Source: Thermoplasmatales archaeon (GTDB lineage: Archaea; Thermoplasmatota; E2; DHVEG-1). Taken from it: a stretch of 33,252 nucleotides of DNA. This document shows, piece by piece, positions 344-4,890 of this stretch; within the stretch, counting starts at the first letter, position 1, and every line of letters begins with the position of its first letter. Location: assembly GCA_020350365.1 (NCBI GenBank), contig CP070712.1:310385-343636 (forward strand). The letters run 5' to 3'. Position numbers and translations under genes: made by a program. The notes beneath the pieces are model-generated. The model worked only from the letters and a program-made list of their open reading frames with translations, was not told the origin of the DNA and searched no databases.

Positions 344-647
344 TTCATTAATATTGTAGGTTTAATTTTATTTATATTTTTTTATTATATTACTATTTGT
401 TTGAGAAATCATAAAACTTTATGTATTAATAATACATTCAAGAATTCTGGGGGAATTTGGTGGACCAAACTAAGGGTAAAGGATGGGTCTTCCATTACCG
501 ATTCCTCGGTAAAAATGTGTTTGGGGTTTGATGGGGACCAAATACGATTTACGAGTTTCATGCACGGCATGATAAAAATATGTAAAATAAATACACCTCA
601 TTCCCCCCTATATATTATGTTTTTTCAATAAAAAAATTATTAGAAAA
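344..647. other. Gene-free stretch dense in palindromes
   Basis: This 304-base gap lies downstream of orc1/cdc6 and upstream of the DUF998 gene. Bases 443-576 are richer in G than the flanks and carry six short inverted repeats: AATTC/GAATT (443-457), TTTGGT/ACCAAA (456-469), GGTAA/TTACC (475-499), TTACCGA/TCGGTAA (495-512), TTTGG/CCAAA (520-542) and TCATGC/GCATGA (558-572). I recognise no RNA family here. It could be an untranslated RNA, a set of protein-binding sites, or origin-associated sequence, since initiator boxes lie on the other side of cdc6. A 98-codon plus-strand frame crosses it but has no ribosome site or recognisable product. Confidence 0.5.
366..379 (-). promoter_or_regulatory. 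TATA-like box for the DUF998 gene
   Basis: On the minus strand this reads AAATATAAATAAAA, centred about 29 bases before ATG 343. This is the spacing expected for an archaeal TATA box on a leaderless or nearly leaderless transcript. The surroundings are also AT-rich, so the exact box is uncertain. Confidence 0.35.
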
Positions 648-1865
648 TCATATCAAACGTGTTTGACCACGGATTTTATAATTTGATAGTTCTTTAAATA
701 CATCATCCTCATGTAAAATATTTAAAATATCTTCTAATGAATAGGATATTTTTATGTCTCTAGTTCTTCCATATCTTCCTTTAGAGATAACACGGGCAGT
801 AATTATTCCAAGCATATCAAGTTCAGATATTAAGTCAGCAATCCGTCTTTGTGTAAGAATATCGGTTCTAATTTTCTTACTTAAATCCTTATATATTTCA
901 TAAACTTCTCCAGTTGTAATAGTTCCATTAGAACCAACTTTCTGATTTTGCTTTTCTTGCAATAGGATTGCTAAAAGTATTAATTTTGACTGAGTGGGCA
1001 ATGTTCTTACAACTTCAATAATTCTATCGATTTCTATTTTGTTTTGTGCAAGACGAACATGTTTCTTTGTTATTTTTAAGGCTTTTCCTCTTTCAGCAAG
1101 CTCGGCAGACATTCTTAAAAGATCCAATGCTCTCCTTGCATCTCCATGCTCCTGGGCTGCAAGAGCAGAACATAGCGGAACTACGTCCCCTTCAATAGAA
1201 TTTGGTTTTAAGGCCGTTTTTACTCTTTGAATTAATATATCTTCTAGTTCTTTTGCATCATAAGGAGGAAATATCATATTTTCCTCACCCAGACTTGATT
1301 TTACACGAGGATCTAAAAATTCAGTAAACTTAAGATCATTGGAAAGCCCTACAATCGATACTCTTGCATTATTAAGATCTGCATTAATTCTTGACAGATT
1401 ATAAAGTGCCTCATCTCCCTTTAATTTATCAACTTCATCAAGAATAATAACGGTAACTCCGCCTTCTTTTTCTATCATCTGCTTTAATTTTGTAAAAACT
1501 TCATCTGTTGGCCAACCTGTAAAAGGAATTCGTTCAGACCAATCATCAATAAAATGATTTGCAATATTTTGTAAAAGCCGGTATTGCGTATCAACAATCT
1601 CACAGTTAATATAAATAAAATTTACTTTTTTTCCTGTTTCTTTTCCTTTTGATAAAAGCTTATTTCCAACATATTTTGTAACAGCTGTTTTTCCAGTTCC
1701 TGTTTTCCCATAAATAAAGACATTGGACGGAGTTTCGTCTCGTAAAGCAGGTACAAGCACAGAAGCCAAACCATCAATTTCTCTGTCTCTATGAGGTAAG
1801 GTTTCAGGCATATATGTCGGTCTCATAGCTTCTCTGTTTAAAAATAGACCATTAAATTTAAGCAA
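648..1865 (-). CDS. orc1/cdc6: Orc1/Cdc6 replication initiator
   Basis: An AAA+ origin-binding protein that recognises ORB elements and helps load MCM helicase. Numbered from TTG 1865, it shows Walker A GKTGTGKT (53-60), Walker B VIILDEVD (139-146), sensor 1 GLSND (173-177), an LDPRV arginine-finger region (about 185-189), sensor 2 GDARRALD (241-248) and a C-terminal winged-helix domain (about 290-405). Length is normal for the family. The start is uncertain. TTG 1865 has no good ribosome site, and the in-frame sequence upstream, NSDIFGRL, matches the usual N-terminal helix of archaeal Cdc6, but no ATG, GTG or TTG occurs between 1868 and the stop near 1925. Its promoter probably lies inside the origin region, allowing autoregulation. 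Confidence 0.95.
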   Translation of the reverse strand: MLKFNGLFLNREAMRPTYMPETLPHRDREIDGLASVLVPALRDETPSNVFIYGKTGTGKTAVTKYVGNKLLSKGKETGKKVNFIYINCEIVDTQYRLLQNIANHFIDDWSERIPFTGWPTDEVFTKLKQMIEKEGGVTVIILDEVDKLKGDEALYNLSRINADLNNARVSIVGLSNDLKFTEFLDPRVKSSLGEENMIFPPYDAKELEDILIQRVKTALKPNSIEGDVVPLCSALAAQEHGDARRALDLLRMSAELAERGKALKITKKHVRLAQNKIEIDRIIEVVRTLPTQSKLILLAILLQEKQNQKVGSNGTITTGEVYEIYKDLSKKIRTDILTQRRIADLISELDMLGIITARVISKGRYGRTRDIKISYSLEDILNILHEDDVFKELSNYKIRGQTRLI

Positions 1866-1966
1866 TCGACCAAATATATCACTATTTACTGTCTTTCTCT
1901 CCTTCGTAAAAATATCTCCCCCGGGCTAATGTAATCAGCCATGGCATATTAAAAATTTTTGTATTA

Positions 1967-1997
1967 TTTTTCTCCTGATTTTCTCCTGTTGAAAAAG
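1967..1997 (-). repeat. Degenerate third ORB-like element with TTTTCTCCTG repeats
   Basis: Two direct copies of TTTTCTCCTG lie in tandem, 13 bases apart, followed by TTGAAAAAG. On the minus strand, TTTTTCAACAGGAGAAAA resembles box 1 (TTTCCACAGGAAAT) with a two-base insertion and the same orientation. The match is partial, and it also overlaps the likely cdc6 promoter region. Confidence 0.35.
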
Positions 1998-2006
1998 TGA
2001 GAGAGG

Positions 2007-2032
2007 AAGGCCCTTATTTCCTGTGGAAATCG
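2007..2032 (-). repeat. ORB-like initiator box 1
   Basis: The minus strand reads ATTTCCACAGGAAAT then AAGGG and CCTTCC. It agrees with box 2 at 20 of 26 aligned positions and lies in the opposite orientation. The dyad TTTCC/GGAAA plus a downstream G-run is the known ORB pattern bound by Orc1/Cdc6. Confidence 0.75.
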
Positions 2033-2172
2033 TATATAAATATTTTAAAATCTTTAAATTTTTTTATATTTATATTTTTAAAAATCAGAATATTCAAATA
2101 TTTAAAAATTTATACCCTTCTGGATATACTTACGTTTTAAAATTTTTTTAATAACATATACTTACAATTTTA

Positions 2173-2198
2173 TTTTCCACACGAAATGAAGGGGTTCC
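2173..2198 (+). repeat. ORB-like initiator box 2
   Basis: The plus strand reads TTTTCCACACGAAAT then GAAGGGG and TTCC. This is the better match to the archaeal ORB consensus, in which a TTCCA/GAAAC-type dyad is followed by a GGGG string. It faces away from box 1 across the AT-rich core. Confidence 0.75.
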
Positions 2199-2227
2199 CC
2201 CAAAAAAATTAATAAAAAAATTTTTAA

Positions 2228-2467
2228 CTATTGACCCCCAATAATAATTACATCCTTTACGGACTTTATAGAATTGAATGGAAAAACAAGATTACCTTGA
2301 TTATCTAAATGATATAATCTTGGATCTATATCATCTGAGGGTTCTACAAGAATTCCAACTAACTCTCCTGTTGTACTATCAACAGTAGAATTCCTCATTA
2401 TTCCTAAATATAAACCTTCTTCGCTCATCACAGATTTTCCTCTAAGTTCATTTTCAGTAACTTTCAA
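2228..2467 (-). CDS. PRC-barrel domain protein
   Basis: A 79-residue single-domain protein. The pattern ELRGKSVMSEEGLYLGIM, then a strand-rich segment with GELVGILVEPSD, then FPFNSIKSVKDVIII, matches the PRC-barrel fold. That fold occurs as small stand-alone archaeal proteins and in RimM and photosynthetic reaction centres, and usually mediates protein or RNA contacts. The TTG start at 2467 is supported by GGAGGG seven bases upstream. It follows the CDC48 gene by 29 bases on the same strand, so the two are probably co-transcribed and it may be a partner of that ATPase. That link is inferred from position only. Its 3' end borders the origin region. Confidence 0.8.
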   Translation of the reverse strand: MKVTENELRGKSVMSEEGLYLGIMRNSTVDSTTGELVGILVEPSDDIDPRLYHLDNQGNLVFPFNSIKSVKDVIIIGGQ

Positions 2468-2496: not shown

Positions 2497-4890
2497 TTAC
2501 ATATATTGAATATCTTTTTCGCTTTTATCCTTTTTGGCTAATCCACTACCTAGGGTTTCAGATAGCTTATCATAGAATTTAATTATATTTGGTGTAATTG
2601 TAGCACGAACATCGTCCATTGCTTTTTGGAAGTGAGCCTTTCTAACCTTATTTGCCTTTTCATTTTCTCTAACTGCAATCATTGCTGCCTCCCTACAAAG
2701 AGATTCAATGTCAGCACCGGAATATCCATTAGTTTTAATAGCAAGCCAATAAAATAATTTATCTTTATCAGATAGTTTCTTAGTATTAATATCAGATTCT
2801 AAGGATTCTTTATCTAAATTATCATTTTCAGATTGAGGTATCTCTTCACCCTTAGTGCCAATTTTAATTAAGTGTTTTTTCTTTTTTATAAAATCATCAG
2901 TTTCACCTGTTAGTTGAATATCAAGTTCTTTTAATTCTTGTTTTGTTAATGATATTGGCATACCTTTTGTATGTATCTTGAAAATTTCTAAACGAGCAAG
3001 TTTATCTGGTGAATGAATCAATACTAATCTGTCGAAACGCCCTGGTCGCAACAAACCAGGATCGATGATATCTGGACGATTGGTAGCACCAATGACAACG
3101 ACGCCCTCCATACTTTCTAAACCATCAATGCTTGTTAAAAGTTGATTTACAACACTATCTGTTACATGAGTTCCTGTATCAGTTCCTCTCATTGGGGCAA
3201 TAGAATCAAGTTCATCTAAAAATACAATAGTTGGAGCAACTTGTCTTGCCTTTTTAAATAATTCACGGACAGCCTTTTCACTTTCGCCAACCCACTTACT
3301 CATAACTTCGGGTCCTTTAATTGATATAAAATTAGCTTTTGATTCATGAGCAACGGCTTTAGCAAGTAACGTCTTTCCAGTACCTGGTGGTCCATAAATT
3401 AATATTCCCCTTGGCGGAGTAATGCCCATTTTTTTGAATACTTCTGGTTTTGTAAGTGGCCATTCAACAGCTTCTCTGAGTTGTTGTTTAGCACTTTCTA
3501 GTCCTCCAATATCTTCCCAGGAAACCTTTGGGACCTCAATTAAGAACTCCCTCATTGCTGATGGCTCAATTCCTCTATGGGCACTTTTAAAATCATCCAT
3601 TGTGACTTCCATTTTCTCAAGAAGTCCGACAGGGATTGGTTTTTCGAGATCTATTTCTGGAAGATATCTTCTTAAAGCATTCATTGCTGATTCTCGAGCA
3701 AGAGCTGCAAGATCTGCACCGACAAAACCATAAGTTATGTCAGCAAGCTCTTCAAGATCACAATCTTTACACATTGGCATTCCTCGTGTATGAATCTGTA
3801 GAATTTCTTTTCTACCTGTTCTGTCTGGAGCGTCTATTCTGATTTCTCTATCAAATCTTCCAGGTCTTCGAAGAGCAGGATCTAGAACATCTGGAATATT
3901 GGTAGCTCCAATAACTATTAATTTCCCCCGACCTTTAAGTCCATCCATAAGTGTTAACATCTGTGAAACAACACGACGCTCAACTTCCCCATGAACCTCA
4001 CTTCTTTTTGGTGCAATTGCATCAATTTCATCAATGAATATTATAGATGGTGCATTTTTTTCGGCTTCTTCAAAAATCTTTCTAAGGTTTTCTTCACTTT
4101 GGCCATAAAATTTACTCATGATTTCTGGACCATTAATCGTATAGAAATTTGCACCTGACTCATTTGCCACAGCTTTAGCAATTAATGTTTTACCAGTCCC
4201 GGGTGGGCCATGAAGCAGTACTCCTTTTGGAGGGTCAATACCTAATCGATCAAAAAGCTCAGGATGTTTGAGCGGAAGTTCTATCATTTCTCTTACTTTT
4301 AAAATTTCATCATGAAGACCACCAATGTCCTCATAGCTAACTCTTGGCCCTTCCATTTCAATTTCTTTTGCCGCTTCTTCCTTTACTTTTATTAGAGTCT
4401 CTTCACTAATAGATACAATTCCTGCAGGATTTGTATTAATAATAACAAAAGGTAGTGAGCTTCCAAATAATGCAATTCCAGGTATAATTACACTATCTCC
4501 TTTAGTCAGAGGTCTTTTTAATAATCCTTTTTTAATTAGATTGTCAATGCCACTTCCAAACTGAATTTGTTGACCTTTTGATATTAATGGAGCAAGTGTT
4601 ACATCTTTTGCCTCTTTGACCTCAGCTCTTTTTATTTTAACACGTTCCCCAAGACCACTACCACAATTTTTTCTTGTTAAGTTATCAATACGAATTATCC
4701 CTTTCCCTTCATCAGTAGGATGCGCTCTCCAAACGACAGATGCTGTCTTTTTTGTACCCTCAATTTCAATGACATCTCCTATAGATAAATCTAAATTCAT
4801 ACGTGTTTGATGGTCAATACGTGCTCTACCATAACCAACATCTTGTTGAAATGCTTCTGATATCTTTAATACGGCTTCTTTATCTTTCAT
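2497..4890 (-). CDS. cdc48: CDC48/VAT-type AAA+ ATPase
   Basis: A double-ring unfoldase, the archaeal p97/VAT homologue, feeding substrates to the proteasome or remodelling complexes. Order of parts in 797 residues: N-domain with double-psi barrel (about 1-180, including GRARID and GDVIEIEG), D1 with GPPGTGKT (228-235) and IIFIDEID (283-290), D2 with GPPGTGKT (500-507) and IVFLDELD (555-562), and GATNRPD (601-607). Between IHTKGMPI and NGYSGADIE, where family members usually have about 15 residues, there is a charged stretch of roughly 65 residues (about 648-715). The C-terminus ends IQYM, a poor match to the proteasome-docking HbYX tail. A ribosome site (GGTGGGAG) precedes ATG 4890. The PRC-barrel gene follows. 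Confidence 0.97.

Follow-up and report, generated by a model that had tools for sequence, protein, structure and literature searches.

Replication origins of the oriC1 type, as described for Sulfolobus oriC1, Haloarcula hispanica oriC1 and Pyrococcus oriC, have an AT-rich region beside orc1/cdc6 that is flanked by at least two inverted ORBs, each a dyad of the form TTCCA...GAAA followed by a G-string. Experiments in Sulfolobus and Haloarcula show that both ORBs are needed and that the Sulfolobus origin also requires ucm, an element midway in the core. A 2025 study (PMC12141716) describes crenarchaeal ucm as a conserved element, short and distinct from the ORBs, in the core that inverted ORBs enclose, and restricts ubp, the gene of its binding protein UBP, to Desulfurococcales and Sulfolobales. 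Haloarcula origins are active at only some ORB-bearing loci, and the presence of ORBs is therefore no proof of firing.

Among related Thermoplasmata, the predicted origins of Methanomassiliicoccales consist of ORB pairs beside orc1/cdc6.1 with the consensus GTTCCAGTGGAAATGG-AGGGGT, and only one of the two Orc paralogues in these organisms is accompanied by ORBs (PMC4153887). We find that an uncultured Thermoplasmatota archaeon and its family carry a more regular arrangement. The DNA analysed (33,252 nucleotides, hereafter the window) covers positions 310,385-343,636 of a 1.82-Mb genome that is assembled as one contig and has a completeness rating of 64%; a comparison of the contig ends for circular closure revealed no overlap between the first and last bases. 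The closest named relatives are uncultured Thermoplasmata assemblies, including Thermoplasmatales archaeon bin105 (CP070836). Rfam searches of the window and of the gap upstream of orc1/cdc6 returned zero matches. This 320-bp gap (1908-2227) is very probably the chromosomal replication origin of the organism, and is predicted from its sequence to be of the oriC1 type. The genes and principal features are as follows.

648-1907, minus strand: orc1/cdc6, 419 amino acids with ACG at 1907-1905 as the start; TTG first occurs at 1865
1971-1998, minus strand: weak third ORB-like stretch, TTCAACAGGAGAAAATCAGGAGAAAA, which forms repeat D2 with box 1 and shows block conservation in the family alignment
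2004-2031, minus strand: ORB box 1, proximal to cdc6, GATTTCCACAGGAAATAAGGGCCTTCCT, 37.0 bits with a matrix from other genera
2032-2171, no strand: AT-rich core, 87.9% A+T, a candidate region for duplex unwinding and MCM loading
2172-2199, plus strand: ORB box 2, distal to cdc6, ATTTTCCACACGAAATGAAGGGGTTCCC, 42.2 bits with the same matrix
2228-2467, minus strand: gene for a small PRC-barrel protein, on the far side of the putative origin from cdc6
2497-4890: CDC48/VAT gene, following the PRC-barrel gene

Both boxes consist of a dyad and a G-rich string, as the first-pass annotation had recognized. The dyad of box 1 is perfect (TTTCC-ACA-GGAAA) and leads into the tail AAGGGCC, while box 2 reads TTTCC-ACAC-GAAA followed by the tail AAGGGGTTCCCC. 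The two lie in opposite orientation, with the dyad of box 1 facing the AT-rich core and its G/C tail facing cdc6, and with the G-string of box 2 directed outward from the core. The same outward polarity is implied by published mutations in H. hispanica oriC1 (ORB I C-run, ORB II G-run). The identity of 20 in 26 positions that had been noted earlier holds by hand count when the boxes are placed in register (2005-2030 on the minus strand against 2173-2198 on the plus strand), whereas the originally assigned interval for box 1 (2007-2032) was about two bases out of register and yields 9/26 as written. The extended boxes (2004-2031 and 2172-2199) are identical at 20/28 positions, and a repeat search returned arms 2005-2029 and 2174-2198 with 80% complementarity. 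Box 2 differs from the common archaeal ORB motif published with Ori-Finder 2 at 2/20 positions. Box 1 differs from this motif at more than three positions because its G-string is short; compared with oriC1-type origins, the string of the proximal box is reduced to GGGCC here and is replaced by a C-run in some family members. The third stretch, located immediately upstream of the likely cdc6 promoter, did not reach 6 bits when scored with the ORB matrix and was rejected as a full ORB; it is only a lead.

The adjacent gene encodes an initiator of the ORB-binding Orc1-1 type. Its product has AAA, Cdc6_lid and Cdc6_C (winged helix) domains, with Pfam Cdc6_C above the cut-off, and the nearest solved proteins are Sulfolobus Cdc6-1 (2qby_A, 6e-110) and Aeropyrum ORC1 (2v1u_A), in agreement with the initial assignment of this gene. 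A CDC48-like neighbour is seen repeatedly across the gap from cdc6 in relatives.

Conservation of the boxes was assessed by scoring the regions upstream of cdc6 in 29 family genomes with a weight matrix built from 32 boxes in upstream gaps of other genera, our own genus being left out. Among the 26 family genomes in which the gap sequence extends far enough, 25 have box 2, and box 1 occurs in its G-tailed form in 18 family genomes and as the same dyad with a C-rich tail in 7 more; many family boxes trained the matrix, and the independent evidence thus comes from place, polarity, spacing and the genomes outside the training set. Indeed, nearly all testable family members have the inverted pair upstream of cdc6, with box 1 at a maintained distance from the gene and a box-to-box offset of 167-173 bp in most genomes (exceptions are 207 bp in G020 and 193 bp in G041). 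Absence of the boxes from the same gap in relatives had been named earlier as evidence that would count against an origin; instead, the boxes are present, inverted and spaced almost uniformly, an arrangement shared with oriC1-type origins. A strict box pattern gave 26 matches in 45 family genomes compared with 0 for the reversed pattern. Of these, 22 are next to cdc6. Another two have the expected spacing of a pair, on a contig cut off immediately ahead of cdc6, and the remaining two are isolated matches in a single genome (G048). Beyond the family, both genomes of sister family f3 carry an inverted pair with wider spacing, and the rest of the class has single boxes, two boxes in the same orientation, or none. 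Methanomassiliicoccales likewise have ORB pairs beside one of two Orc paralogues, but their spacing and orientation vary and many are downstream of the gene, whereas the pairs described here lie upstream, are inverted and keep an even spacing throughout the family.

At seven loci (L035, L036, L039, L219, L226, L227 and L228), the proximal box, some 160 bp upstream of cdc6, retains its dyad but has a C-run (e.g. ATCCCCTCCCC) in place of the G-string. The G-rich strand is therefore flipped in those proximal boxes.

An AT-rich core of about 140 bases between the boxes had been proposed at the outset, and its length is 140 bp with an A+T content of 87.9%, compared with 68% across the window. Among 33,112 overlapping 140-bp windows, just 12 are equally AT-rich, and seven of these represent the core displaced by 6 bases or fewer, such that only one other place in the window matches it. 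What the first-pass annotation missed is that the core carries two conserved blocks, ACGTRAGTATATCC and TATTTGAATATTCYGATTTTTAAAAATAT. The core elements are as follows.

2072-2100, minus strand: core element B, TATTTGAATATTCTGATTTTTAAAAATAT, slightly to the cdc6 side of the box-to-box midpoint
2122-2135, minus strand: core element A, ACGTAAGTATATCC, conserved among family cores
2156-2165, minus strand: second, partial copy of element A, GTAAGTATAT, direct repeat D3, beside box 2 and about 30 bp from the first copy

In an alignment of 24 family cores, the best 10-column conservation block reaches 10.6 bits versus 2.8-4.3 bits in twelve alignments of shuffled cores, and a second conserved block (TATTTGAATATTC..ATTTTTAAAAATAT) reaches about 10 bits; common descent inflates these values, although adjoining parts of the gap have diverged. 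The element A motif, ACG-N(1-3)-AGTA[TG], keeps a constant distance from box 2 and is present within core bases 26-60 in 21 of the 24 cores (shuffled mean 0.03), while [AG]AGTAT is present within core bases 1-25 in 11 of them (shuffled mean 0.84). A strict form of element A has five matches, of which four are located upstream of cdc6 and the fifth lies on a contig that has no match to cdc6. The reversed control also gives five, which indicates that the strict form alone is nonspecific and that the weight rests on the positional test. Element B gives 17 matches in the 45 family genomes, one per genome and every one upstream of cdc6, versus none for the reversed control.

Elements A and B are thus conserved non-ORB elements between inverted ORBs, and resemble crenarchaeal ucm in position. 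The core with two conserved internal elements distinguishes this locus from other oriC1-type origins, for which we found no description of such elements, and A and B are apparently undescribed before. Element A is a partial repeat around AGTAT with copies about 30 bp apart, and element B is an AT block with palindromic sequence close to the midpoint. Speculatively, the two would form a site for a second origin-binding factor or a site where the duplex preferentially opens. By analogy with the ucm/UBP system, for which reports are so far limited to Crenarchaea, it is possible, if slightly short of an even chance, that A and B constitute a second, lineage-specific and origin-restricted recognition site for an origin factor yet to be named. 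UBP occupies hundreds of sites in the genome (PMC12141716), but matches to element B were confined to the putative origin. The 2025 study closes with the question whether more divergent archaea have a counterpart of the ucm-binding protein, and A and B offer candidate sites in a distant lineage.

The boxes are also unique in the genome. With the matrix, the best background score was 10.1 bits in 800 kb sampled from both strands of the same genome, and no site in the window other than the two boxes reaches 6 bits. Pattern searches covered the entire genome. Allowing up to three mismatches, the box pattern occurs at 12 places (10 for the reversed control) and as a pair only at the cdc6 gap, and allowing up to two mismatches the common archaeal motif occurs at a single place, which is box 2. 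The search for further copies recommended by the first-pass annotation therefore uncovered no second pair or cluster.

If this locus functions as its experimentally studied counterparts in Sulfolobus and haloarchaea do, Orc1/Cdc6 made from the adjacent gene would bind the two inverted ORBs with a polarity fixed by the inward dyads and outward G-tails. The two bound Orc1 molecules would then load MCM helicase on the AT-rich core between them, the core duplex would open, and two forks would depart in opposite directions. The family-wide pair and the strict matches at cdc6 support the earlier interpretation of the gap as an origin, with its activity standing as a prediction, and define a predicted origin in an uncultured archaeal family precisely enough to be tested.

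One other explanation is that the boxes are operators through which Orc1 regulates its own gene and perhaps its neighbours, with the active origin located elsewhere. The gap does double as the cdc6 promoter region, the weak third ORB-like stretch lies just upstream of the likely promoter, and archaeal Orc1-type proteins can regulate, as reported for haloarchaeal Orc1-2 (PMC9738581). However, boxes 1 and 2 are about 100 bp and 265 bp upstream of the start, which is far for simple autoregulation, and origins have just this layout, in which a near-constant pair with opposite polarities encloses a conserved AT-rich core. As the genome also yielded no further box cluster, we regard operator function in place of an origin as quite improbable, while regulation alongside origin function would be compatible with these observations.

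Just as improbable in our estimation is that the locus was inherited as a true origin but has become weak or dispensable, and that replication now begins at another place or through recombination. This is known from Thermococcus kodakarensis, which is viable without Cdc6 and its origin (PMC5663688), and the chromosome-scale signals are compatible with this explanation. In 40 sampled 20-kb stretches from each of three single-contig genomes (G000, analysed here, G003 and G008), no origin fit to GC skew, strand-corrected third-position skew or gene orientation was better than permutation. The evenly spaced stretches used for skew and background scoring cover about 44% of this genome, about 45% of one relative and about 34% of the other. 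Since no replicative skew appears at any position in the three genomes, skew neither supports nor refutes an origin at cdc6. Gene-order symmetry around cdc6 is weak and inconsistent; three comparisons gave rho values of 0.30, 0.19 and 0.03, against a permuted standard deviation of about 0.08. Nevertheless, family-wide conservation of the boxes and core elements resembles that of sequences under constraint, and the genome has only one Orc, though in an assembly rated 64% complete. Chance resemblance within AT-rich DNA can be dismissed, despite the 49 pairs of AT-rich inverted repeats in the gap, by the strict-pattern counts, by box scores that exceed everything else in the genome sample by more than 25 bits, and by family-wide conservation of the sequence, place and polarity of the boxes.

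Returning to the initiator of the predicted origin, a further Orc paralogue of about 30% identity occurs in most of the family, and two of its carriers belong to the same genus. Its absence from our genome reflects loss or an assembly gap, and loss is not certain at the estimated completeness. No boxes were detected near the second paralogue in nine regions checked in relatives. An additional Orc1 relative with 49% identity (G056:C36:14285-15487) is intermediate in similarity between the two usual paralogues, and may belong to an integrated element.

The 5′ end of cdc6 is unusual in that no ATG, GTG or TTG is present between an in-frame TAG (1928-1926, minus strand) and the conserved N-terminus. 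An ACG (1907-1905, minus strand) is located 8 nucleotides past GGGGGAG, and about ten relatives have ACG at the same place without a nearby in-frame canonical start. Five other relatives have ATT or ATC after GAGGAGG, and sister family f2 has ATG at the corresponding place. The gene therefore seems to start at ACG, suggesting that this replication initiator uses a near-cognate start codon. If genuine, such starts would point to control at translation that keeps initiator levels low.

Directly downstream of cdc6 we also observed a conserved non-coding element (412-560, plus strand) with 66-86% identity in about ten other family genomes and with no match in Rfam. A TATA-like TAAAACTTTATGTAT is followed by GGGGGAATTTGG...CGATTCCTC...GAGGGGAACCAAATAC, and the recurrent fold comprises GGGGAAU paired with AUUCCUC and a 3′ hairpin whose stem appears compensatory by eye. 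The element is a candidate for an unnamed RNA of about 110 nucleotides, and in one family genome (G006) its counterpart is located several kilobases away from cdc6.
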